Assembly: GCA_003554525.1 (NCBI GenBank)
Contig: PWGO01000133.1
Span: 1-36,863, forward strand
Direction of reading: 5' to 3'
Source of the DNA: Syntrophomonadaceae bacterium
GTDB taxonomy: Bacteria > Bacillota > Dethiobacteria > DTU022 > PWGO01
Length of the DNA stretch: 36,863 nucleotides
The translations under genes were made by a program, and so were the position numbers. Positions 19,748 to 35,814 of this stretch are shown here, piece after piece. The notes beneath the pieces are model-generated. The model was not told the DNA's origin. It did no database searches and worked only from the letters and a program-made list of their open reading frames with translations. Positions within the stretch are counted from its first letter, which is position 1. Each line of letters starts with the position of its first letter.

Positions 19748-20788
19748 TTAAGGTACTATCGCAGCCTGGCTCAAGCCTGTATTTTCTTCAAAATCAAGCA
19801 TCAGGTTCATGTTCTGCACCGCCTGCCCGGCGGCCCCTTTCACCAGGTTATCTATAGCTGAAATCACTACCACAGTTCCAGTTCTTTCATCCAGGGTTAA
19901 ATTTATATGGCAGAAGTTGCTTCCCCTTACCCACCTGGTTTCCGGAAACATCCCAGGCTCCAGGATTTTCACAAAACCGGCATGCCGGTAATAAGAGTGG
20001 TAAATTTCCCTTAGTTCCTCTTCGTCGCTTCTTCCCGCCAGGTTTACATAACAAGTGCTGATTATGCCCCGGTTCACCGGGATAAGGTGGGGAGTAAAAA
20101 TCAGGCGAACCCCGGAACCCTGGACCAGGGAGAGGAGCTGTTCCATCTCCGGTGTATGCTGGTGTGAGGCAATACGATACGCTTTAAAACTCTCGCTGCA
20201 TTCCGGAAAATGAAACGCCTGTTTCGGGGAGCGCCCCGCCCCGGATACTCCCGACTTGGAATCTATTATCAACCCCCCGCCCGACAGCAAACCTTTATCC
20301 GCCAGCGGAAGCAGGCCCAGCAGTACTGAAGTAGGATAGCAGCCGGGGTTTGCTACCAGCCAGGCACTTTTTATCAATTTCCTGTTTACCTCCGGCAGTC
20401 CATAAACCGCTTCCGGAAGGAGCTCAGGAACCGTATGGGTAATACCGTACCAATCCCGATAAAGGGAAGGCTCTTCCAGGCGGAAATCTGCGCTTAAATC
20501 TATGGTGCGGAGTCCCCTGCCTTTTAGTTTTTTTACTACTTCCGCCGAATGTCCATGAGGAAGCGAACAAAAAACTATATCCGTATCCCCGGGGACTTCT
20601 TCCGGGTCCAGGGCAGACAGTACCGGGATTGGTTTCCCGGTAAACTGAGGATGTACCTGGGAAAGCTCCCTGCCCTGGTGTGATTCTGAAGAAAGGTAAG
20701 ATATGTTCACTGCCGGGTGAAGCAGAAGAAGCCTTACCAGCTCTATGCCCGTATATCCTGTAGCTCCCAGCACAGCTGCTTTTTTCAA
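19748..20788 (-). CDS. argC: N-acetyl-gamma-glutamyl-phosphate reductase
   Basis: AAVLGATGYTGIELVRLL, VANPGCYPTSVLLGLLPL, SGVSGAGR. Confidence 0.96.
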   Translation of the reverse strand: MKKAAVLGATGYTGIELVRLLLLHPAVNISYLSSESHQGRELSQVHPQFTGKPIPVLSALDPEEVPGDTDIVFCSLPHGHSAEVVKKLKGRGLRTIDLSADFRLEEPSLYRDWYGITHTVPELLPEAVYGLPEVNRKLIKSAWLVANPGCYPTSVLLGLLPLADKGLLSGGGLIIDSKSGVSGAGRSPKQAFHFPECSESFKAYRIASHQHTPEMEQLLSLVQGSGVRLIFTPHLIPVNRGIISTCYVNLAGRSDEEELREIYHSYYRHAGFVKILEPGMFPETRWVRGSNFCHINLTLDERTGTVVVISAIDNLVKGAAGQAVQNMNLMLDFEENTGLSQAAIVP

Positions 20789-21934: not shown

Positions 21935-23485
21935 CTATAACGGCATGTTACCGTGCTTACGCGGAAGCCTTTTTTCACGCTTGCTATAAATAGCTTCCAG
22001 GGAACGCAGAAGGTGATAGCGGGTATCCCGGGGATCAATTACATCATCTATCCAGCCGCGCGAAGCAGCGATATAAGGGTTGGCATACTTTTCACGGTAT
22101 TCGCTGGTAAGCCTTTCCTTTTCCTTTTCCGGGTCCCCGGAGTTCTCAATTTCTTTCCGGTTAATAATATTTACCGCTCCTTCCGGTCCCATAACCGCAA
22201 TTTCCGCCGTGGGCCAGGCCAGGGAAATATCCGCACGCATGGCCCTGGAATTCATGGCCAGGTAAGCCCCGCCGTAGGCCTTACGCAAAATAACCGTCAC
22301 CTGGGGCACGGTTGCTTCCGCGTAGGCGTATAATAGCTTGGCGCCGTGCCGGATAATACCCCCCCATTCCTGGTTAACCCCGGGAAGGTAGCCGGGAACA
22401 TCAACGAAAGTAACCAGGGGTATATGGAAACTGTCACAAAACCTTACAAAGCGGGATATCTTGTCGGAAGAATCAATATCAAGGCACCCTGCCATTACTG
22501 AAGGCTGGTTCCCTATAACCCCGACCGGCTGTCCACCCAGGTGGGCAAAACCTACTACCGCGTTGGCAGCGTATTTTTCCTGTACTTCAAAAAAGCGGCT
22601 TCCGTCTACCACTCTCTTTATAATATCCCTTACATCGTATCCCTTGTTGCTGCCCTCGGGCACCAGGTTGACCAGCTCTTCCCGGTCTAAACGGGGTTCT
22701 TCCGGCTCCGCCGGCGGAGGATCTTCAACATTATTGGGAGGAAGATAGTCCAGTAGAGTTTTAACCCTTTCCAGGCAGTCATCTTCGTTTTCGTCCATGA
22801 AATGGGCCACCCCGCTGGACTGGTTATGTGACAAGGCCCCACCCAGTTCTTCCTGGGTTACTTCTTCTCCCGTAACTGCTTTGATAACCTGGGGGCCAGT
22901 TATAAACATGAGACCCGTTTCTTCCACCATAAATACAAAATCAGTTAAAGCCGGGGAATAAACCGCCCCACCGGCACAAGGCCCCATGATAACCGATATC
23001 TGGGGTATTACCCCGGAGTATATGGTGTTGCGGTAAAATATCTCTCCGTAGCCGTTAAGGGCATGAACCCCTTCTTGAATCCGGGCACCCCCGGAATCGT
23101 TTATGCCTACCAGGGGAGCACCGCTTTGGGCCGCCAGGTCCATTGCCCGGCAGATTTTTTCTGCATGTCTTTCCCCCAGGGAGCCGCCGGCCACGGTAAA
23201 ATCCTGGGCGTAAACGTATACTTTTTTGCCGTTAACGGTGCCATAACCGGTAACTACACCTTCTCCCGGGTTTTCAATATCCAGTGAGCTGGCCTCCTCC
23301 ATATCGGTCTGAACAAAAACACCTATTTCTACAAAACTTTCCGGATCGAGCAGTTGCTCCAACCTTTCCCGCGCCGTTTTTTTACCTTTTTCTTTTTGTT
23401 TTTGTTGTTTTTCTTCCCCGCCGCCCAAAAGCGTTTTTTCCCGCCTCTGTTGTAAATGAGACAGCTTTTTTTCCATAATTGCCAT
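21935..23485 (-). CDS. Acyl-CoA carboxylase / methylmalonyl-CoA decarboxylase carboxyltransferase subunit
   Basis: KKTARERLEQLLDPESFVEIG; GGARIQEGV; GPCAGGAVYSPALTDF; VDVPGYLPG; cluster context suggests propionyl-/methylmalonyl-CoA specificity. Confidence 0.9.
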   Translation of the reverse strand: MAIMEKKLSHLQQRREKTLLGGGEEKQQKQKEKGKKTARERLEQLLDPESFVEIGVFVQTDMEEASSLDIENPGEGVVTGYGTVNGKKVYVYAQDFTVAGGSLGERHAEKICRAMDLAAQSGAPLVGINDSGGARIQEGVHALNGYGEIFYRNTIYSGVIPQISVIMGPCAGGAVYSPALTDFVFMVEETGLMFITGPQVIKAVTGEEVTQEELGGALSHNQSSGVAHFMDENEDDCLERVKTLLDYLPPNNVEDPPPAEPEEPRLDREELVNLVPEGSNKGYDVRDIIKRVVDGSRFFEVQEKYAANAVVGFAHLGGQPVGVIGNQPSVMAGCLDIDSSDKISRFVRFCDSFHIPLVTFVDVPGYLPGVNQEWGGIIRHGAKLLYAYAEATVPQVTVILRKAYGGAYLAMNSRAMRADISLAWPTAEIAVMGPEGAVNIINRKEIENSGDPEKEKERLTSEYREKYANPYIAASRGWIDDVIDPRDTRYHLLRSLEAIYSKREKRLPRKHGNMPL

Positions 23486-24415: not shown

Positions 24416-26092
24416 TCACAGCAGAACATCTGAATGATATTCACCAAATACTTCTCTTAAAACACCACATATTTCTCCCATTGTAGCATAAGCTTTTACC
24501 GCTTCCAATATGGGTGGTATCAGGTTATCTTCCCCCCGGGCTGCACTGCGCAGGTTTTGCAGCGTTTCTGATACCTTGCGCTGTTCCCGGTTGTGCCTGG
24601 TTTCTTTAAGCCTTTCTACCTGCCTTTCCGCCACGGAAGGATCCACCTTCAACAGGTCCATCGGGGGCTCTTCCTCGCTTACAAAGCGGTTTACACCCAC
24701 TACTATTTTCTCTTCCCTTTCAATATCTTTTTGATACCGGTACGCGCTTTCCTGGATTTGTTTCTGCACGTATCCTTTTTCTATGGCCGCAATAGCTCCA
24801 CCCATGTTATCTATACGCTCCAGGTATTCTTCGATCTGCTCCTCTAACCGGTCAGTTAATTCTTCCAGGTAATAAGAGCCTCCCAGGGGATCTACGGCAT
24901 CTGTCACCCCGGTCTCGTAGCCTATTACCTGTTGGGTGCGCAGGGCCAGCAAGGCAGCTTCTTCGCTGGGCAGGGCCAGTGCTTCATCCCGCGAGTTGGT
25001 ATGCAGCGACTGTGTCCCGCCCAAAACCGCACTTAAAGCCTGGAAAGCCACCCTTACCACGTTCACTTCAGGCTGTTGAGCCGTGAGGCTGCAGCCTGCG
25101 GTCTGGGTATGGAAACGGAGCATCATGGAGCGGGGATTTTCGGCACCAAAACGCTCTTTCATTATACGGGCCCAGATGCGCCGCGCCGCCCTAAATTTGG
25201 CAATTTCCTCCAGGAAGTTTACGTGGGCGTTAAAGAAGAAAGAAAGGCGCGGGGCAAATTCGTCCACTTTTAATCCAGCATCCAGCGCCGCCTGCACGTA
25301 AGCAACTCCGTTGGCCAGGGTAAAAGCAATCTCCTGTGCCGCGGTGGAACCCGCTTCGCGGATATGGTAACCGCTAATGCTTATGGTATTCCACTGGGGT
25401 ATATTTTCCCGGGCAAAAGCAAAGGTATCCACTACCAGGCGCATGGATTCCCGGGGCGGGTAAATATAAGTGCCGCGGGCCACGTATTCCTTGAGTATGT
25501 CGTTCTGAATAGTTCCGTTAAGCTTGCTCCAGGGAATGCCCTGTTTTTCCGCTACCGCCAGGTACATGGCCAGTAAAATGGCCGCCGGGGCATTGATAGT
25601 CATGGAGGTGCTGACCTTGTCCAGCGGAATCTGGTCCATTAAAATCTCCATGTCCTTTAGAGAATCCACCGCTACGCCTACCTTGCCGACTTCACCGCGG
25701 GCCATGGGATGGTCGGAATCGTAACCAATCTGGGTAGGAAGGTCAAAAGCCGCGCTTAAACCGGTCTGCCCCTGCTCCAGGAGGTAACGAAAACGCTGGT
25801 TGGTTTCTTCAGCGGCACCAAACCCGGCATACTGCCGCATGGTCCACAGGCGCCCGCGGTACATGGTAGGCTGTATTCCACGGGTAAAAGGATACTCCCC
25901 GGGAAAACCCAGCTTCTTTAGGTAGTCCCAGTTTTCCAGGTCCAGGGGGGTATAAAGCCGTTCCACTTCTATCCCCGTATCCAGGGTAAAATCATCCTTA
26001 CGCTCGGGGCGCTTTTCCAGGGTTTTTTGCACCTTTTTGTCCCACTCTTTTTTTTCCTCTTTAAGGCGGGATAATTTTTGAGGATCAAACAT
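24416..26092 (-). CDS. Methylmalonyl-CoA mutase large subunit
   Basis: [71 protein letters not shown]. Confidence 0.95.
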
Positions 26093-26278: not shown

Positions 26279-27154
26279 CTACGATTGCCCCAGCGCCTGT
26301 TCTACCAGGCCAGGTATCCGGGGCGGCAAATCCGCCACCTGGGCGCCGCATTCCCTCAGCGCCTCTTCTTTGCTGGCAAAACTGCCCCTTCCCCTTTCTA
26401 TTATGGCCCCCGCGTGCCCCATCCTCTTACCGGAAGGCGCACTTTTGCCTGCAATATATGCCACTACTGGCTTGGTTACATTTTCTTTAATAAAAGCGGC
26501 AGCTTCTTCTTCCGCACTACCTCCTATTTCTCCCACCAGGACCACCGCCCCGGTCTGGGGATCTTCTTCAAACTCCTTTAGAACCTCTATAAAATTCAGT
26601 CCTACCACCCGATCTCCACCCATTCCCACTACTGTGGAAGTACCCATGCCCTTCTCCATCAGCTGCGCCACTATCTCGTAGCACAGGGTTCCGCTTCGCG
26701 ACACCACTCCTACAGGGCCGGGAACAAAAAAGCGGTTGGGCATAATACCCGCCTTGCATTTGCCGGAGGAAACTACACCAAACGTATTGGGGCCAATAAC
26801 AACCGCTCCCCGGTACCTGGCAAACGCCATTATTTCCATAGCGTCAATAAGGGGAATGTGCTCTGGAACCAGTACCAGGGTTTTAATCCCCGCCTCCAGG
26901 GCTTCCAGCGCCGCATCTTTTGCATAAGGGGCGGGGGTAAAAAGAATGCTGGCTTCTGCCGGGTGCTCCCTTACCGCTGAAAACACCGTATTGTAAACGG
27001 GAACACCCTCTATTTCCCGGCCTTTTTTACCCGGGGTAACCCCGGCCACAACCCTGGTCCCGTATTCCAGCATCTGGCCCGTGTGAAAAGCCCCCTGGTT
27101 CCCAGTAATTCCCTGCACAATAACCCGGGTATTTTCATTAACATATATGGCCAT
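26279..27154 (-). CDS. sucD: Succinyl-CoA synthetase alpha subunit
   Basis: VQGITGNQGAFHTGQMLEYGT; KPVVAYIAGKSAPSGKRMGHAGAI, active-site His region. Confidence 0.95.
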   Translation of the reverse strand: MAIYVNENTRVIVQGITGNQGAFHTGQMLEYGTRVVAGVTPGKKGREIEGVPVYNTVFSAVREHPAEASILFTPAPYAKDAALEALEAGIKTLVLVPEHIPLIDAMEIMAFARYRGAVVIGPNTFGVVSSGKCKAGIMPNRFFVPGPVGVVSRSGTLCYEIVAQLMEKGMGTSTVVGMGGDRVVGLNFIEVLKEFEEDPQTGAVVLVGEIGGSAEEEAAAFIKENVTKPVVAYIAGKSAPSGKRMGHAGAIIERGRGSFASKEEALRECGAQVADLPPRIPGLVEQALGQS

Positions 27155-27156
27155 TT

Positions 27157-28281
27157 TTAAAACCCTCCCCCTGCATTATTCTTTGAGGCTTCTACAGCAC
27201 GCTGCACGGCTTCTTCCATGGACTGAAAAACTTCTACCCCAGCATCATGTAAAACGCGGCGGCCTTCCGCCTCGTTGGTTCCCACCAGGCGGAAAAAAAA
27301 CGGTATGGATATTCCCTGTTTTTCTTTTACCGACACAAAAGCACGGGCTACCACGTCACAACGCGTTATCCCCCCAAATATATTTATCAATATCACCCGG
27401 GGATCGGTCCCTAAAAGCAGTTCCAACGCCCCGGAGGTCTTTTCCTCTCCGGCGCCACCCCCAAAATCCAGGAAGTTTGCAGGGGTGCCACCAAAATGCT
27501 GTACCAGGTCCAGGGTAGCCATGGTTATACCCGCCCCGTTTGCCATTACCGCCACGTCCCCTCCCAGGTCCACGTAAGCCAGGCCCATCTCCTGGGCCTT
27601 TTTTTCCAGCGAAGTCTTTTCTTCCACCCTGGGGATCTCTTTTTGGCGGTACAGGGCGTCATCGTCTATTACTACTTTAGAATCCAGGGCCAAAAACTCT
27701 TCCCCGGAAAGAGCCAGCGGGTTTATCTCAACCAGCTCGGCATCTTTTTCCCGGAACAACCTGTAGAGGCTCTCCAGGACAGCCGCAAAAGACCGGACCA
27801 CTTTCCCTTCCAGCCCCAGGCGGTCACCAATTTCCCGGGCTATATAAGGGCTGTATCCCGTTAAAACCTCTACCGGGTATTTTACTATATGTTCTTCCGG
27901 AACTTCCTCTATATCCATACCACCGTAGAGAGATGCCAGTACAACCGGTTGCCGCGCTTCAGCCTCTACAGTTATAGCCAGGTAGAGTTCCCTTTCCAGG
28001 GGAAGCTTTTCTTCTACCAACAGACGCTCAACTTTTTCCCCGCCTACTTCCATCTGCAGCAGCCGTGAAGCTTCTTCCTCCGCCTGACTGGGGTTGTCTG
28101 CAAAAGATATGGCCCCGGCTTTTCCCCTTTTCCCGGTTAAAACCTGGGCTTTTAACACCACGCCGCCCAGTTCTTCCGCCGCCCGGGCCGCCTCATGAGC
28201 TTCCTGCACCACCCGCCCGCCGGGAAGCGGAACCCGGTAACCATCAAATAGTTCCTTTCCCATGTACTCGTAGAGTTTCAT
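27157..28281 (-). CDS. sucC: Succinyl-CoA synthetase beta subunit
   Basis: ATP-grasp; VEINPLALSG; ANGAGITMATLDLVQHFGGTPANFLDFGGGA; likely start MKLYEYMGKELFDGY behind GGAGG. Confidence 0.95.
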   Translation of the reverse strand: MKLYEYMGKELFDGYRVPLPGGRVVQEAHEAARAAEELGGVVLKAQVLTGKRGKAGAISFADNPSQAEEEASRLLQMEVGGEKVERLLVEEKLPLERELYLAITVEAEARQPVVLASLYGGMDIEEVPEEHIVKYPVEVLTGYSPYIAREIGDRLGLEGKVVRSFAAVLESLYRLFREKDAELVEINPLALSGEEFLALDSKVVIDDDALYRQKEIPRVEEKTSLEKKAQEMGLAYVDLGGDVAVMANGAGITMATLDLVQHFGGTPANFLDFGGGAGEEKTSGALELLLGTDPRVILINIFGGITRCDVVARAFVSVKEKQGISIPFFFRLVGTNEAEGRRVLHDAGVEVFQSMEEAVQRAVEASKNNAGGGF

Positions 28282-28403
28282 AATTACCTCCTTAAAAATT
28301 ATATTATACTTTGTAAACAAGAATTGCAGTGTAAAAGTTTATAAGTGTTACATACAACAGTAACCTCCTGTACGGTTACTTCACCATCACAACTTGCAGC
28401 TGC

Positions 28404-30104
28404 TTACGAATGCACCTGGTATTTCTTTAACTTGTTGTAGAGGGTAGCCAGGGATATGTTTAACGCTTTTGCCGCTTTCTTCTTCCCCTCCAGGTTTTCT
28501 CCAAAATGGGCCAGCGCAGATTTAAGCATCATCTCTTCCATCTTATCCAGGGGAATTATTTCAGCCGCCCCCGGTGAAGTAACCGCCGGCCTGGTTATAT
28601 ACGGATCAAGGTGCTCCGGTTTTATAACATGCCCTTCTGTGCTTATCGCCGCCCTTTCTATTACGTTCCACAGCTCGGGAATATTCCCGGGCCATTCGTA
28701 TTCCAGAAGGTGCTGAAGAGCCTGGGGCGATGCTCCTCTTATATTTTTCCCCAGTTTCCGGTTAAGCTGGTTTATAAAGCTGTCCACTATAAGGGGAATA
28801 TCCTCGACTCTCTGTCGCAGCGGGGGCAAGTTAAGTTCAAAATTATTCAGGGCCAGGTACAGGTCTTCCCTGAATTTGCCCTGCCGAACCAGCCGTTTAA
28901 GCCCCCGGTAAGAAGAAACTACCAGGCGAACCTCAACCCTGACCGGTTCTTCACCGCCTATACGGCAAAAACTTCCTTCCCGGAGGCACTGCAACAATTT
29001 CTCCTGCAAATAGTGGTTAAGCTGGCACACCCCTTCTATATACAGTGTTCCTCCACGCGCAATTTCTATTTTTCCCAGGCGGGTCCGCACCTTCCCGGGG
29101 TAGGCATCTTTTTCACAGCCAAACAGCTCCATTTCCAGCAGGCTTTCCGGCACAGAACTGGTATCCAGCTTGATAAACGGGTGCATTTGCCGTGAGCTGT
29201 TCCGGTGTATAGACTGGGCCAACACTTCCTTGCCGGTTCCCGGTTCTCCTTCTATTACCACCGGCTTATCGCTGCGTGAAGCTTTACGGGCCATTTCTAC
29301 CACCGGCTTAAAATTTTTGCTTTTTCCTACCATTTCTTCAAAAGACCAGTTAACTCCGGAAATACGGTTAATCTGGGCATAAAGATTTTCAATAATTGTA
29401 TTGCTGTGTTCTAGCTTTTCCATAAGCTTTAATATGTCCGTAACCGGCTGAAACACTACTACGGCCCCCTCTATTTCCCCGTCCACCACTATAGGAGAAG
29501 CGTTGGAAATTACTTCTACATCAGAGCCCCCCACTATAGTGCGGTACCCGGTAACCGGCTTCTGGTAAATAAGCGAACTGGCCAGGGCACCGTGTGGAGA
29601 AACCTCAAATATATTTGCCCCTACCCTTTGGGCTTCGGGTATGCCTGTAACACGGGTAAAAGCCGGGTTTATATACTTTATTACTCCCTCCCTGTCCGCA
29701 ACCTCGATAGCGTCCTGAACAGAATTTAATATGGCCCAGAGTTCACCTTTAAGCCGCTTTGCCTCTATTAATTCTTCCTTGGCCCGGAAAAGAGTTCTAA
29801 AAAAAGTGCTTTTTCCCGGGGTTATTACTTCTACCCCCGGGGGCACACTATCATTCAGCCGCTGCACCGTTTCTTCATCTTCTACTGCAATTATTACCGC
29901 GCTTATTCCCGTTAAAGAAGAAACCTCTTCCGGGCGGGAAGCAAGGTAACAGCTTTCTTTTTCTCCAGGAGACAGCAACGTAAATTCACCGGAAATATCT
30001 ATTACCGCAGTTATCTCAAAATAGTTCTCTACCTCCCGTAGGATACGTAAAATAGAATCGTCTTCTTCACCATTTACTACCAGGGCTACTCGCTCAGGAG
30101 CCAT
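28404..30104 (-). CDS. PAS + degenerate AAA+ (sigma-54 activator-like) + Fis HTH transcriptional regulator
   Basis: PAS (ILNSVQDAIEVADREGVIKYINPAFTRVTG); Walker A GEPGTGKE; ELFGCEKDAYPGKV instead of ELFGHEKGAFTGA; C-terminal KKKAAKALNISLATLYNKLKKY HTH. Confidence 0.9.
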   Translation of the reverse strand: MAPERVALVVNGEEDDSILRILREVENYFEITAVIDISGEFTLLSPGEKESCYLASRPEEVSSLTGISAVIIAVEDEETVQRLNDSVPPGVEVITPGKSTFFRTLFRAKEELIEAKRLKGELWAILNSVQDAIEVADREGVIKYINPAFTRVTGIPEAQRVGANIFEVSPHGALASSLIYQKPVTGYRTIVGGSDVEVISNASPIVVDGEIEGAVVVFQPVTDILKLMEKLEHSNTIIENLYAQINRISGVNWSFEEMVGKSKNFKPVVEMARKASRSDKPVVIEGEPGTGKEVLAQSIHRNSSRQMHPFIKLDTSSVPESLLEMELFGCEKDAYPGKVRTRLGKIEIARGGTLYIEGVCQLNHYLQEKLLQCLREGSFCRIGGEEPVRVEVRLVVSSYRGLKRLVRQGKFREDLYLALNNFELNLPPLRQRVEDIPLIVDSFINQLNRKLGKNIRGASPQALQHLLEYEWPGNIPELWNVIERAAISTEGHVIKPEHLDPYITRPAVTSPGAAEIIPLDKMEEMMLKSALAHFGENLEGKKKAAKALNISLATLYNKLKKYQVHS

Positions 30105-30342
30105 AAAAAAGCCTCCCCAAATTAGAAGTTAAATTCCTTACCTTAGAATATTCGTAAATCTTAGAAGGATTTCCTGCCACTTCATGTTTATTTTTTATTT
30201 GTCATAAGATTTAAACAAATTCTGCTTTATTGAAATTCATATGGAACCCAATATTTCAAAGGAATATTTCCCCCTGTTGAAGAATAAGTAATAAATAGAG
30301 GCATATAAAATAAGCAGGGGGATAATAAAATAGTATCTTGTC

Positions 30343-30379
30343 ACCAATATTGGTACTATCTGGTGCCAGTATTAATACT
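30343..30379. promoter_or_regulatory. Two perfect 12-bp palindromes, centres 25 bp apart, upstream of 30399
   Basis: ACCAATATTGGT (30343-30354) and AGTATTAATACT (30368-30379). Confidence 0.6.
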
Positions 30380-30398
30380 TTAAGGGGATGATTAAAGT

Positions 30399-31322
30399 AT
30401 GATAGTATACGCATTTACAGGCCCCAGCGGAACAGGGAAAAGCCACCACGCCCCCTTTTACGCTTACAACAACAATATCCAGGTAATTATTGATGACGGG
30501 CTGTTAATAAAAAATAACCAGGCAATAGCGGGAATATCAGCCAAACGGGAAAGAACCCGTTTTGGAGCTGTTAAGAGGGCCATCTTTAAAGATCCGGAGC
30601 ACGCGGAAACAGTAAAAGAGAAAATAAGCGAGCTAAAACCGGAAAAAATAATGATTATAGCCACTTCAAAGCGCATGAGCCAGAGAATTGCCCAAAGGCT
30701 GGAGCTACCCTACCCGCAGCACTATATAAATATTAACGATTTTATTCCCGAAGAAAATATACAAAAAGCCCTGGAAATCAGGGAAAAACAAAACCAGCAT
30801 GTAATTCCCCTGCCTACTTTTGCCATAAAAAAGGATTTCCCTGGCTACCTGATAGCCCCACTAAGGTCTTTTTACACCAGAGCAGCTACCGATCATAAAA
30901 ACGTCCCCCTGGAACGCACTATCATGCGCCCTATCTACAGCTCAATGGGGGACTTCTTTATCAACGAAAATGTAATAAAACAGCTATGCCAGCATATCAG
31001 CGAAACCATCCCCGGAGTGCACCAGTGCAATAAAACCCAAACATATTCCGACGACAGCGGTGTCACTGTGGAACTACAGCTTACCATGATTTACGGCCAT
31101 GACCTGAAAAACCTGCTTATTATAACTCAAAAAGAAGTAAAAGAAAAAATAGAGCACCTCACTGGATTCTACCTGAAAAACGTTTACGTTATAGCAAAGC
31201 ACCTGCACGTGCCCGAACACCGTAAACCCCCAAGCCTCGCCGGGAAGCACCAGGAGGAGGCTCCCGATGCCTCTACCGGCATAATTGTAAATGCAAAAAA
31301 AACCGGCGCAGAAAACCGGTAG
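30399..31322 (+). CDS. P-loop NTPase fused to a C-terminal Asp23/Gls24-like domain
   Basis: Walker A AFTGPSGTGKSHHA; C-terminal GDFFINENVIKQLCQHISETIPGVHQ...VTVELQLTMIYGHDLKNLLIITQKEVKEKIEHLTGFYLKNVYVIAKHL resembles Asp23. Confidence 0.75.
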   Translation: MIVYAFTGPSGTGKSHHAPFYAYNNNIQVIIDDGLLIKNNQAIAGISAKRERTRFGAVKRAIFKDPEHAETVKEKISELKPEKIMIIATSKRMSQRIAQRLELPYPQHYININDFIPEENIQKALEIREKQNQHVIPLPTFAIKKDFPGYLIAPLRSFYTRAATDHKNVPLERTIMRPIYSSMGDFFINENVIKQLCQHISETIPGVHQCNKTQTYSDDSGVTVELQLTMIYGHDLKNLLIITQKEVKEKIEHLTGFYLKNVYVIAKHLHVPEHRKPPSLAGKHQEEAPDASTGIIVNAKKTGAENR

Positions 31323-31545: not shown

Positions 31546-32343
31546 TTACCCCTCCCCGGCAATCCTGTCCTGCCGGGTATATACTGTCATGCGACTGCCC
31601 CGGGTAAACCCTACCAGGGTAAGTCCTACGGTGTCGGCCATTTCCACGGCAAGAGAAGTGGGAGCCGCGCGGGAAACCAGCACCGGTATTTGTAGTCTGG
31701 CCGTTTTTACTAGCATCTCCGAAGACAATCTCCCGCTGCAGACCAGCACCTTGTTGTTTAGCGTGATCTCCCGGTCCAGGCACTCCCCCACTATTTTATC
31801 CAGTGCGTTATGTCTACCCACGTCCTCGCAAAAAAATACTACTTCTTCGCTGCTACATAAAGCGGCACTGTGCACACCCCCGGTTTGTTTATACAATTCA
31901 GAATTCTCCTGAAGGGACCGCATGTGGCGCTGCAGGGAGGAGGGGCTTATTTTCAGGTTACTTTCTATAGTCTGTGTCTTAAAGGAATCCCAGGCGCTGT
32001 AAAACACGGTTCCTTTTCCACAACCTGTAGTAAGGGTCCTTTTACCATACAGCCGGTCGGACAAAAACGGCTCCTTTGAAGTCTCTACATACACTATCCC
32101 TTTTTCTCCCTCAAACCAGAGATTCTCTAACTCCTTTTTCCCTTCCAGAAAGCCTTCCGAGTGCAGAAACCCCAGGGCAAGGTATTCCAGTTTTTCCGGG
32201 GTACACAAGAGAGTTATTATCTCCCTGCCATTAAGAAAAATGGTTACCGGGTACTCCACGGCAACCATGTCTTCAAATTCCCTGGCTTCCTCTTCTTTTA
32301 ACATCATTACTTTTTTTCTTTCTAACACTTCACGTTTCTGCAT
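31546..32343 (-). CDS. fdhD: Formate dehydrogenase accessory sulfurtransferase FdhD
   Basis: VTIFLNGREIITLLCTPEKLEYLALGFLHSEG; GGVHSAALCSS; FCEDVGRHNALDKIVGECL; SGRLSSEMLVKTARLQIPVLVSRAAPTSLAV. Confidence 0.95.
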   Translation of the reverse strand: MQKREVLERKKVMMLKEEEAREFEDMVAVEYPVTIFLNGREIITLLCTPEKLEYLALGFLHSEGFLEGKKELENLWFEGEKGIVYVETSKEPFLSDRLYGKRTLTTGCGKGTVFYSAWDSFKTQTIESNLKISPSSLQRHMRSLQENSELYKQTGGVHSAALCSSEEVVFFCEDVGRHNALDKIVGECLDREITLNNKVLVCSGRLSSEMLVKTARLQIPVLVSRAAPTSLAVEMADTVGLTLVGFTRGSRMTVYTRQDRIAGEG

Positions 32344-32380: not shown

Positions 32381-33433
32381 CTAATTAACTTCCTCCACCC
32401 CGTTTTCCCCAAGTGTTCCCATGATATCATTATAGTGATCTTCGCTGTAAGGATTGTCACTCACATTAATCCTGTGCAGGTTTTCTATCTCTAAAAGCGG
32501 GGAAAGATCGCTTATCCGGTTGTTTTGCACCATCAAGTATTCCAGGCCTTCCAGCCCCACCAGCGGGGAAAGGTCCTCAACCCTGTTGGAATTTAAATAT
32601 GCAATTCTTAAACGCTCCAGCTCCGCAAGGGTGGAAATATCATCAACCCGGTTGTTGGAAACATGTAATATTTTCAGGTTCTTTAACCCCGATAGAGGAG
32701 ATAAATCCTCTATCTCGTTGCTGTTTAACCACAAAACTTGAAGATTCTCCAGGCCAGACAACGGCTGTAAGCTGCTGATTTCATTGTTGCGCAGTACAAG
32801 TGTTTCCAGGTTTACCAGGTCTTCCAGGAAAGATATATCTTTGATCCGGTTTTCCCTGAGAATCAGTTCTTCAAGGTTTTTCAACCCGGTAAGCGGTTCC
32901 GTACTTCTAATTTCGTTCTCCCCCAGGTGGAGAAAATAAAGATTTTCCAACCCCGAAAGGGACGAAATATCACTTATCCGGTTATCACTCAAATCAAGTT
33001 CCTGCAACTTCTCCATTCCGGTAAGGGGAGAAAGCTCCTCTATTTCGTTAACGCCAAGCACAAGCTCTTCCAGGTTTTCCAGCTCCGAAAGGGGAGACAG
33101 GTCGCTAACATTGTTATCCGTCAAATCAAGCTTCCGTAAATTTTGGGCGTATTCCAGCCCCGTTAAATCTTCAACTTTTTCTACTCTCCTCTTATCTCTT
33201 TCGCCGTATTTCAGTTCTTCTATCTCCATTAAATGTCTGGCTCTTATTTCTTCCCCTTCTTCCATATCTTGTTTTTCCCACACCAGCTTCCTTAAATTTT
33301 CATCAGGCATTTCCACCACTTCTTCCGGATCTACCGTATCACCCGGGCATCCCGCCAAAATAACAACCGCTGTTAACACAAATGCACCAACCAGGACACT
33401 ACCAACAAACAACGGTTTTCTCATTAACAACAA
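32381..33433 (-). CDS. Leucine-rich-repeat lipoprotein (internalin/SDS22-type, 11 x 22-aa repeats)
   Basis: Lipobox VILAGC; repeating LSPLxxLxNLExLxLxxNxIxD with exact 22-residue period. Confidence 0.92.
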   Translation of the reverse strand: MLLMRKPLFVGSVLVGAFVLTAVVILAGCPGDTVDPEEVVEMPDENLRKLVWEKQDMEEGEEIRARHLMEIEELKYGERDKRRVEKVEDLTGLEYAQNLRKLDLTDNNVSDLSPLSELENLEELVLGVNEIEELSPLTGMEKLQELDLSDNRISDISSLSGLENLYFLHLGENEIRSTEPLTGLKNLEELILRENRIKDISFLEDLVNLETLVLRNNEISSLQPLSGLENLQVLWLNSNEIEDLSPLSGLKNLKILHVSNNRVDDISTLAELERLRIAYLNSNRVEDLSPLVGLEGLEYLMVQNNRISDLSPLLEIENLHRINVSDNPYSEDHYNDIMGTLGENGVEEVN

Positions 33434-34389: not shown

Positions 34390-34446
34390 GAAGCTCTAGT
34401 AATTACATTGAACTTGTGTATTTAAATGCCCACTGGAGGTGAAACC

Positions 34447-35814
34447 ATGACCCTTTTTGAGCAGGTAAAAAACAACCTGGATAACAAAAACATGGAAGCA
34501 CTCAAATCCCTGATAAACGAAGCCGATATTTTAGAAGTTGTCGAATTAATTAAAGAGCTTCCTTCCGAGGAAAAAGTAATAGTCTTTCGCCTTTTAAATA
34601 AAGAAAAAGCCCTGGAAGTTTTTGAGCAGCTGGATGTTGAGCTACAGCAAAAGTTAATATCTTCTTTTAAAGAAGACCGGGCCATAGAACTTATATCCGG
34701 AATGGAGCCCGATGACCGGGTGAGGCTTCTGGACGAACTGCCAGCCCGCGTGGCCAAAAAGTTGCTTTCTTCCCTTTCCCTGGAAGAAAGAGAAAAAACT
34801 AACGAACTGATGGGCTATTCCCCCAGGACTGCTGGCAGAATTATGACCCCCGAATACGTGCGCATAAAAAGAGAAGACACGGTAAAGGACGCCCTGGAAA
34901 CAGTTAGAAAAAACGGTCAGGAAAAAGAGACCGTCTACCTGCTCTATGTAACCGACAATACCAGAAAGCTAGAGGGAGTAGTTTCTTTAAGGGAACTGGT
35001 AATGGCTTCCCCACAGCAAAAAGTAGAAGATATAATGACCCAAAACCTGGCCAACGTTAGCATAGATACCGATCAGGAAGAAGTAGCACGGCTGCTGCAG
35101 GACCTGGATCTTTTAGCCGTCCCCGTGGTAGACCGGGAAAACCGCCTGGTTGGTATTATTACCGTTGATGACGCCATGGATATCATTGATGAAGAAACCA
35201 CCGACGATATCTTCGACAAGGCGGGATTAACCGCCCTGGCCGGTCAAGAAACCGGCAGGAGCCTGCGCCTGGTAACCGGTTCCATGTGGCAGGTATGGCT
35301 GGTGAGGCTTCCTTTCCTGGTTATCACCCTTATAGGAGGTTTGACCGCGGGTGCGGTAATCGATGTTTATGAAGACACCCTGGGTGCCATACCTTACCTG
35401 GCCATTTTTATCCCGGTAATTATGGACATGGGCGGCAACGTGGGAACCCAGTCTTCTACCATCTTTACCCGGGCGTACGTGCTGGGCCACATAAGCATAA
35501 AACATTTCTTTCGGCACTGGCTGCGGGAAATAGGTATAGGTTTGAGCATAGGGGTGATTATGGGATTGGTCACCGGTATTATCGCTTCCGTATGGCAGCA
35601 AAAACCGGAGCTTGGCCTAACGGTGGGCATTGCACTGGCCATCACCGTAACCCTGGCTACCACCCTGGGCTTCCTGGTTCCCTTTACCCTGGTCCGGCTC
35701 GGGTTTGACCAGGCCGCCGGATCCGACCCGTTTATTACTACCATAAAAGATATTGTCAGCCTCATGGTGTACTTCTACCTGGTTACTGTATTTATGGGGC
35801 ACCTGATTTACTAA
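34447..35814 (+). CDS. mgtE: Magnesium transporter MgtE
   Basis: GGAGGTGAAACC-ATG; N-terminal MgtE domain, CBS pair, TM domain with PVIMDMGGNVGTQSSTIFTRA. Confidence 0.97.
   Translation: MTLFEQVKNNLDNKNMEALKSLINEADILEVVELIKELPSEEKVIVFRLLNKEKALEVFEQLDVELQQKLISSFKEDRAIELISGMEPDDRVRLLDELPARVAKKLLSSLSLEEREKTNELMGYSPRTAGRIMTPEYVRIKREDTVKDALETVRKNGQEKETVYLLYVTDNTRKLEGVVSLRELVMASPQQKVEDIMTQNLANVSIDTDQEEVARLLQDLDLLAVPVVDRENRLVGIITVDDAMDIIDEETTDDIFDKAGLTALAGQETGRSLRLVTGSMWQVWLVRLPFLVITLIGGLTAGAVIDVYEDTLGAIPYLAIFIPVIMDMGGNVGTQSSTIFTRAYVLGHISIKHFFRHWLREIGIGLSIGVIMGLVTGIIASVWQQKPELGLTVGIALAITVTLATTLGFLVPFTLVRLGFDQAAGSDPFITTIKDIVSLMVYFYLVTVFMGHLIY

Follow-up and report, generated by a model that had tools for sequence, protein, structure and literature searches.

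Asp23 proteins are widespread, and two of them, YqhY and YloU, were long listed as essential. The described systems with which the gene analysed here is best compared are the YqhY branch of this family (PF03780), AmaP (NF033218), which is the membrane anchor of Asp23, and the gluconate and shikimate kinases. In B. subtilis, the gene for YqhY belongs to accBC-yqhY, and when it is lost, mutations are selected in every acetyl-CoA carboxylase subunit, a result that has been read as the loss of a restraint on the enzyme (PMC5437119). The window, which is the whole stretch of 36,863 nucleotides analysed in this work, carries a complete gene with an ATG start (30399–31322, + strand), whose 307-aa product joins a kinase-like P-loop domain to an Asp23 domain through a conserved linker.

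This fusion protein shares features with each of these systems and yet differs from all of them: (i) As with YqhY, it has an Asp23 domain and is associated with a biotin-dependent acyl-CoA carboxylase, but it carries in addition a P-loop domain, and its carboxyltransferase is of the MmdA/PccB type, not AccA/AccD. Nor is the fusion found at the locus of the YqhY orthologues, spoIIIA-(accBC)-yqhY-nusB, which is occupied by a separate YqhY-like gene. The genome of the window has both a YqhY-like and an AmaP-like gene of its own (locus L211, 4234–5240, in the order spoIIIAD-AH, YqhY, AmaP, nusB); the two are flanked by the spoIIIAH-like and the nusB-like gene and, in contrast to B. subtilis, accBC is missing from the interval. 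(ii) AmaP also ends in an Asp23-like C-terminal domain, but the fusion has no transmembrane helices, scores 12.8 bits against the NF033218 cut-off of 55, and coexists with a separate AmaP. (iii) Gluconate and shikimate kinases have the N-terminal Walker A, the acidic end of strand 2 and a similar first half of the fold. However, the fusion reaches a TM of just 0.46 and has no acid after strand 3, and its S90/M93 and H134-P137 motifs are specific to its own family.

The original prediction had read the N-terminal half as a P-loop NTPase with a GPSGTGKS Walker A and a kinase-like VIIDDGLLIKN stretch, the C-terminal half as Asp23-like, and the gene as divergent from a regulator. All of this is borne out: the Walker A occupies residues 8–15, VIIDDGLLIKN is present, AlphaFold supports both domains, and the regulator (28404–30104, − strand) lies across a shared upstream region of 294 bp (30105–30398), in which neither a sigma-70-like site nor a convincing sigma-54 site was found upstream of the fusion gene. 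The AlphaFold model, built on an alignment of 43 sequences, comprises two confident domains, the P-loop (residues 1–131) and Asp23 (190–270), with pLDDT mostly >90. The first half, modelled again on its own, agreed with the full model, with residues 139–166 modelled without confidence.

Constraint is stronger on the P-loop half of the fusion protein, with a mean column identity of 59% vs 30% in the Asp23 half. Across 147 sequences the Walker A (30420–30443, + strand) fits the pattern GxxxxGK[ST] without exception, as G8-x(4)-G13-K14-S15, with G8, G11, G13, K14 and S15 identical in 147/147. The same invariance holds for D32-D33-G34 at the end of strand 2 (30492–30500), for K49 in the S47-A48-K49 motif (30537–30545), for S90 and M93 after strand 3 (30666–30677), and for R128, H134 and P137 in the R128...H134-x-x-P137-x-P139 motif (30780–30815), all on the + strand, as well as for G45, A61, A124, P178 and G184. 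Both the alignment and the model place the acidic pair D32-D33 at the close of strand 2, and strand 3 closes on ATS/GTS, where no acidic Walker B is seen. Since so many conserved residues lie outside the Walker A, the sequence suggests an enzyme or a sensor, with these residues serving catalysis or the sensing of a ligand, and not a loose add-on switch.

No Pfam or NCBIfam model reaches its cut-off on the P-loop half. In a fold search of the PDB, gluconate kinase came first (E 1.7e-3, TM 0.46, a weak match), followed mainly by thymidylate, cytidylate, shikimate and adenylate kinases. In a profile comparison with a shikimate kinase, residues 3–45 were aligned and DDG fell on DLDG. When the full profile was run against PDB sequences, only weak matches to P-loop and designed proteins came up. 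Homology with MiaA/IPT, to which part of the family shows weak Pfam/NCBIfam matches, was set aside, the fold search having pointed to the NMP, gluconate and shikimate kinases. The P-loop half appears to be a divergent kinase-like domain that lacks a close relative of solved structure. A metabolic kinase, whose P-loop half would phosphorylate a small molecule while the Asp23 half would serve only to bring the protein to the membrane or into an Asp23/AmaP mesh, would fit the fold, the DDG motif, the many invariant polar residues outside the Walker A, and the presence in the genome of both a YqhY-like and an AmaP-like protein. Weighing the missing Walker-B-type acid after strand 3, the short core, the weak fold matches and the genomic context discussed below, we find such a role rather unlikely.

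The second domain (residues 190–270; 30966–31208, + strand) has a predicted alpha-beta-beta-alpha-beta topology and is identified by Pfam, hhalign and AlphaFold. Its PF03780 match (residues 218–265) barely passes the cut-off, with 28.7 bits against 28 (E 1.9e-6). The match is not due to chance, because PF03780 is found in all 43 of the 43 homologues tested (best E 4.8e-15) and because hhalign pairs the C-terminal profile with the YqhY-like protein of the same genome at 98.6% (E 6e-16). The same domain matches the C-terminal domain of the AmaP-like protein of that genome at 97%. In the structure comparison it also came near the C-terminal domain of cation diffusion facilitators such as MamM (TM ~0.8 on target), a resemblance that may be one of analogy. 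Between the two domains lies the linker (residues 135–185; 30801–30953, + strand), which is conserved in sequence (HVIPxPTxxIKKxFxGYLxDPL, ExSxVRPxFSxLG) with pLDDT < 50 and is a candidate ligand- or partner-binding segment. The protein ends in a variable tail (residues 271–307; 31209–31319, + strand), mostly modelled at low confidence and not conserved. A terminator-like hairpin on the − strand (31302–31320) lies inside the 3' end of the gene, positioned to terminate transcription of the convergent fdhD-like gene (31546–32343).

The switch-like form suggested in the original prediction would be an Asp23 protein of the envelope-stress type whose oligomerisation at the membrane is controlled by ATP binding. 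The Asp23 domain itself, the 97% match to AmaP and the invariant Walker A are in line with this. However, no transmembrane stretch exists in the 307 aa (maximum 19-aa hydropathy 0.84), it is the Asp23 half that varies, and the genomic context is metabolic or replicative, except for a GH18/copper-amine-oxidase-like neighbour in some lineages; we therefore regard the envelope switch as very unlikely.

The fusion is an ancient family and not a one-off. It was found at full length in 168 of the 399 genomes sampled from the phylum (~40%), distributed among 61 families, always as a single copy except in one MAG that has two; named carriers include a Bacillota MAG (L001) and Monoglobus pectinilyticus. 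The profile of the P-loop half alone identified 170 genomes, the extras being an ABC ATPase and a 30-residue remnant. The P-loop half was never found without Asp23: the listed open frames of the true members are all of at least 269 aa, and the shorter ones were weak matches to other P-loop proteins and one 44-aa remnant. Conversely, the small stand-alone form typical of the Asp23 family was not seen among the members, which always carry the P-loop half. Candidate stand-alone P-loop relatives were discarded: the weak extra matches proved to be ABC ATPases, a shikimate kinase and the 30-residue remnant. A phage or defence origin was likewise rejected, with no PHROG, PADLOC, phage or viral-contig match. 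The architecture is thus common, and it is not already characterised in the open literature searched, where no paper on the family was found. The protein of M. pectinilyticus (WP_158648977.1), a full-length member of this family with 39% identity over residues 1–271, is called 'Asp23/Gls24 family envelope stress response protein' in RefSeq, a name that rests on the Asp23 half alone and ignores the P-loop domain. Given an ancient, common architecture in which the P-loop half is better conserved than Asp23, and given that no P-loop half turned up without Asp23, the view that an Asp23 protein acquired a switch module probably has the order reversed. The idea of a regulated form stands as our best guess, and it does so because of the carboxyltransferase link described below, not because of the fusion alone.

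The distribution also bears on sporulation. Many carriers are spore formers, and SpoVS or YmdB genes adjoin the fusion in two loci of family f33 (L058 and L066). However, all 10 of the 10 genomes sampled from f33 have the fusion and none has a spoIVA match; the same applies to genomes G186, G351, G071 and G109, and many genomes with spoIVA lack the fusion. The gene is not restricted to genomes with core spore genes, and a role as a sporulation protein, which this distribution rejects, is extremely improbable.

In the window, a set of genes on the − strand comprises an MmdA/PccB-type biotin-dependent carboxyltransferase (21935–23485), which is the recurrent genomic partner of the fusion, the large subunit of methylmalonyl-CoA mutase (24416–26092), the alpha and beta subunits of succinate-CoA ligase (sucD, 26279–27154; sucC, 27157–28320) and the regulator, after which the fusion follows on the opposite strand. 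Domain matches identify this regulator as a PAS, sigma-54-activator AAA+ and Fis HTH protein. It was discarded as a general partner, its close relatives adjoining the fusion only in families f1 and f4, and is a local feature of the window's class. FdhD was excluded in the same way, the neighbourhood being confined to f1–f4 with no phylum-wide co-occurrence. The window also has two riboregulators: a T-box leader (RF00230; 20845–21130, − strand, 96.3 bits) just upstream of an argC-like gene (19748–20788) that heads an arginine-biosynthesis run, and an M-box magnesium riboswitch (RF00380; 33839–34013, + strand, 141.7 bits) ~400 bp upstream of a CBS-domain membrane protein (34426–35814) that by eye looks like an MgtE-type magnesium transporter. 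Between the fusion and the M-box, a lipoprotein-like protein (32381–33433, − strand) is made up of numerous short leucine-rich repeats that follow the pattern 'NLEEL.L..N.I.DLSPL'.

We took a census of the neighbours of the fusion at 147 loci from 55 families, clustering the neighbouring proteins; loci near contig ends are cut, so that adjacency is undercounted. An MmdA/PccB-type carboxyltransferase lies within ~8 kb of the fusion in 20 loci, in several orientations, and most loci have none within 8 kb. These neighbours are 57–73% identical to the window's copy, and their adjacency requires 12 changes on the gene tree (FastTree, unrooted). They come from 11 of the 55 families; with ~1.3 carboxyltransferases per genome and a chance rate that we ourselves estimate at ~1% per locus, this corresponds to P ~1e-10, which serves as a guide only, families being not fully independent. 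The arrangements vary. The carboxyltransferase follows the fusion without a gap in L200; in L210 the fusion and the carboxyltransferase are followed by OAD gamma, a biotin carrier and OAD beta, that is, a sodium-pumping decarboxylase operon; in L182 fab genes, carboxyltransferase, biotin carrier and an arcC-like gene precede the fusion; and in L173 the fusion is followed by sucC, sucD, a mutase, the carboxyltransferase and a biotin carboxylase. Locus L201 (4079–10872) holds the run panB-panC-panD-birA-bioY-fusion-carboxyltransferase, in which genes for the supply of CoA and biotin stand with the fusion and with an enzyme that needs both cofactors. This panBCD-birA-bioY context, seen in one lineage, would also suit the metabolic kinase, but the pathway context is not constant across lineages.

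The two genes also occur together across genomes. With presence called at E <= 1e-100, the carboxyltransferase was detected in 153/168 genomes with the fusion vs 73/232 without it and, by family, in 58/61 vs 27/80, phylum-wide figures that shared ancestry inflates, neither genomes nor families being independent. Within the five families in which both genes vary, 17 co-occurrences were observed vs 13.4 expected (P = 0.008). A subset of 80 genomes gave 29/32 with the fusion vs 17/48 without it (odds ratio 17.6), and in these same genomes the control genes showed little or no association: FdhD 18/32 vs 30/48 (odds ratio 0.8) and CO dehydrogenase 15/32 vs 12/48 (odds ratio 2.6). In three families (f55, f124 and f138) the fusion is retained and no MmdA/PccB-type carboxyltransferase was detected, and 27 families possess the enzyme but not the fusion.

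Because of this carboxyltransferase link, and because YqhY is reported to restrain acetyl-CoA carboxylase, we consider the best explanation to be that the fusion regulates biotin-dependent acyl-CoA carboxylases or decarboxylases in a nucleotide-dependent and perhaps metabolite-dependent way, with a probability of about 0.42. The protein would be soluble and two-domained, its N-terminal half a divergent P-loop NTPase resembling small-molecule kinases. ATP or another NTP would be bound through G8–S15, with D32/D33 as metal or substrate ligands, and a small metabolite, perhaps tied to biotin, CoA or acyl-CoA, would probably bind near K49/R128/H134. The conserved linker would relay the bound state to the Asp23 domain, making the P-loop half the sensor or kinase and the Asp23 half the effector. 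Much like the restraint reported for YqhY, the Asp23 domain would then hold down or release, perhaps by direct contact, a biotin-dependent acyl-CoA carboxylase or decarboxylase of the propionyl-CoA/methylmalonyl-CoA type.

A second association has to be weighed against the carboxyltransferase. A protein with a DnaD/DnaB_2 domain is encoded near the fusion in 44 loci from 16 families, directly adjoining it in most, and beyond it a DnaI-like helicase-loader ATPase is present in 40 loci from 15 families, both identified with Pfam/NCBIfam (examples of the pair are L045, L057, L059, L068 and ~40 others). The DnaD-like gene is co-directional with the fusion in 13 loci (in f11, f55 and f79 the gap ranges from −37 to 31 nt), divergent in 30, which form a single 30-row clade, and convergent in one (L186). 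The number of families and the several orientations speak for an NTP-dependent partner of the DnaD-like protein and the DnaI/DnaC-like loader in the initiation or restart of replication, a process that it would perhaps tie to the membrane or to the state of the lipids. However, the DnaD-like adjacency requires only four changes on the gene tree, which fall in two large clades, so that the signal is partly one of shared descent; the pair is absent near the fusion in the window's class; and the papers searched tie no Asp23 protein to replication. DnaD and DnaI are expected to serve genomes without the fusion as well, so that the fusion could not be a core loader. The helicase-loader link, an equally frequent neighbour, is the main rival of the carboxyltransferase link, although we judge a primosome role in itself quite unlikely. 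Both links could reflect one role, that of matching membrane-lipid supply and growth to replication.

To return to the regulator of acyl-CoA carboxylases and decarboxylases, its most specific form would be a nucleotide- or metabolite-gated controller that acts, in deep-branching Bacillota, both on biotin-dependent acyl-CoA carboxylases and on Na+-pumping decarboxylases of the methylmalonyl-CoA type. PII-AccB control is known elsewhere, and the fusion would be its Asp23-based counterpart; in this extended form we hold the proposal to be unlikely. Behind the automatic name 'envelope stress response protein' stands a conserved P-loop family, which ~40% of the genomes sampled from the phylum carry. 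With one half that is putatively catalytic or ligand-binding and a repeated tie to acyl-CoA carboxylases, a two-domain version of Asp23 offers a handle on how Asp23 acts, through its ligand, its partner and point mutations. If the protein does control acyl-CoA carboxylases or decarboxylases, it would provide a biochemical logic for the Asp23 family.
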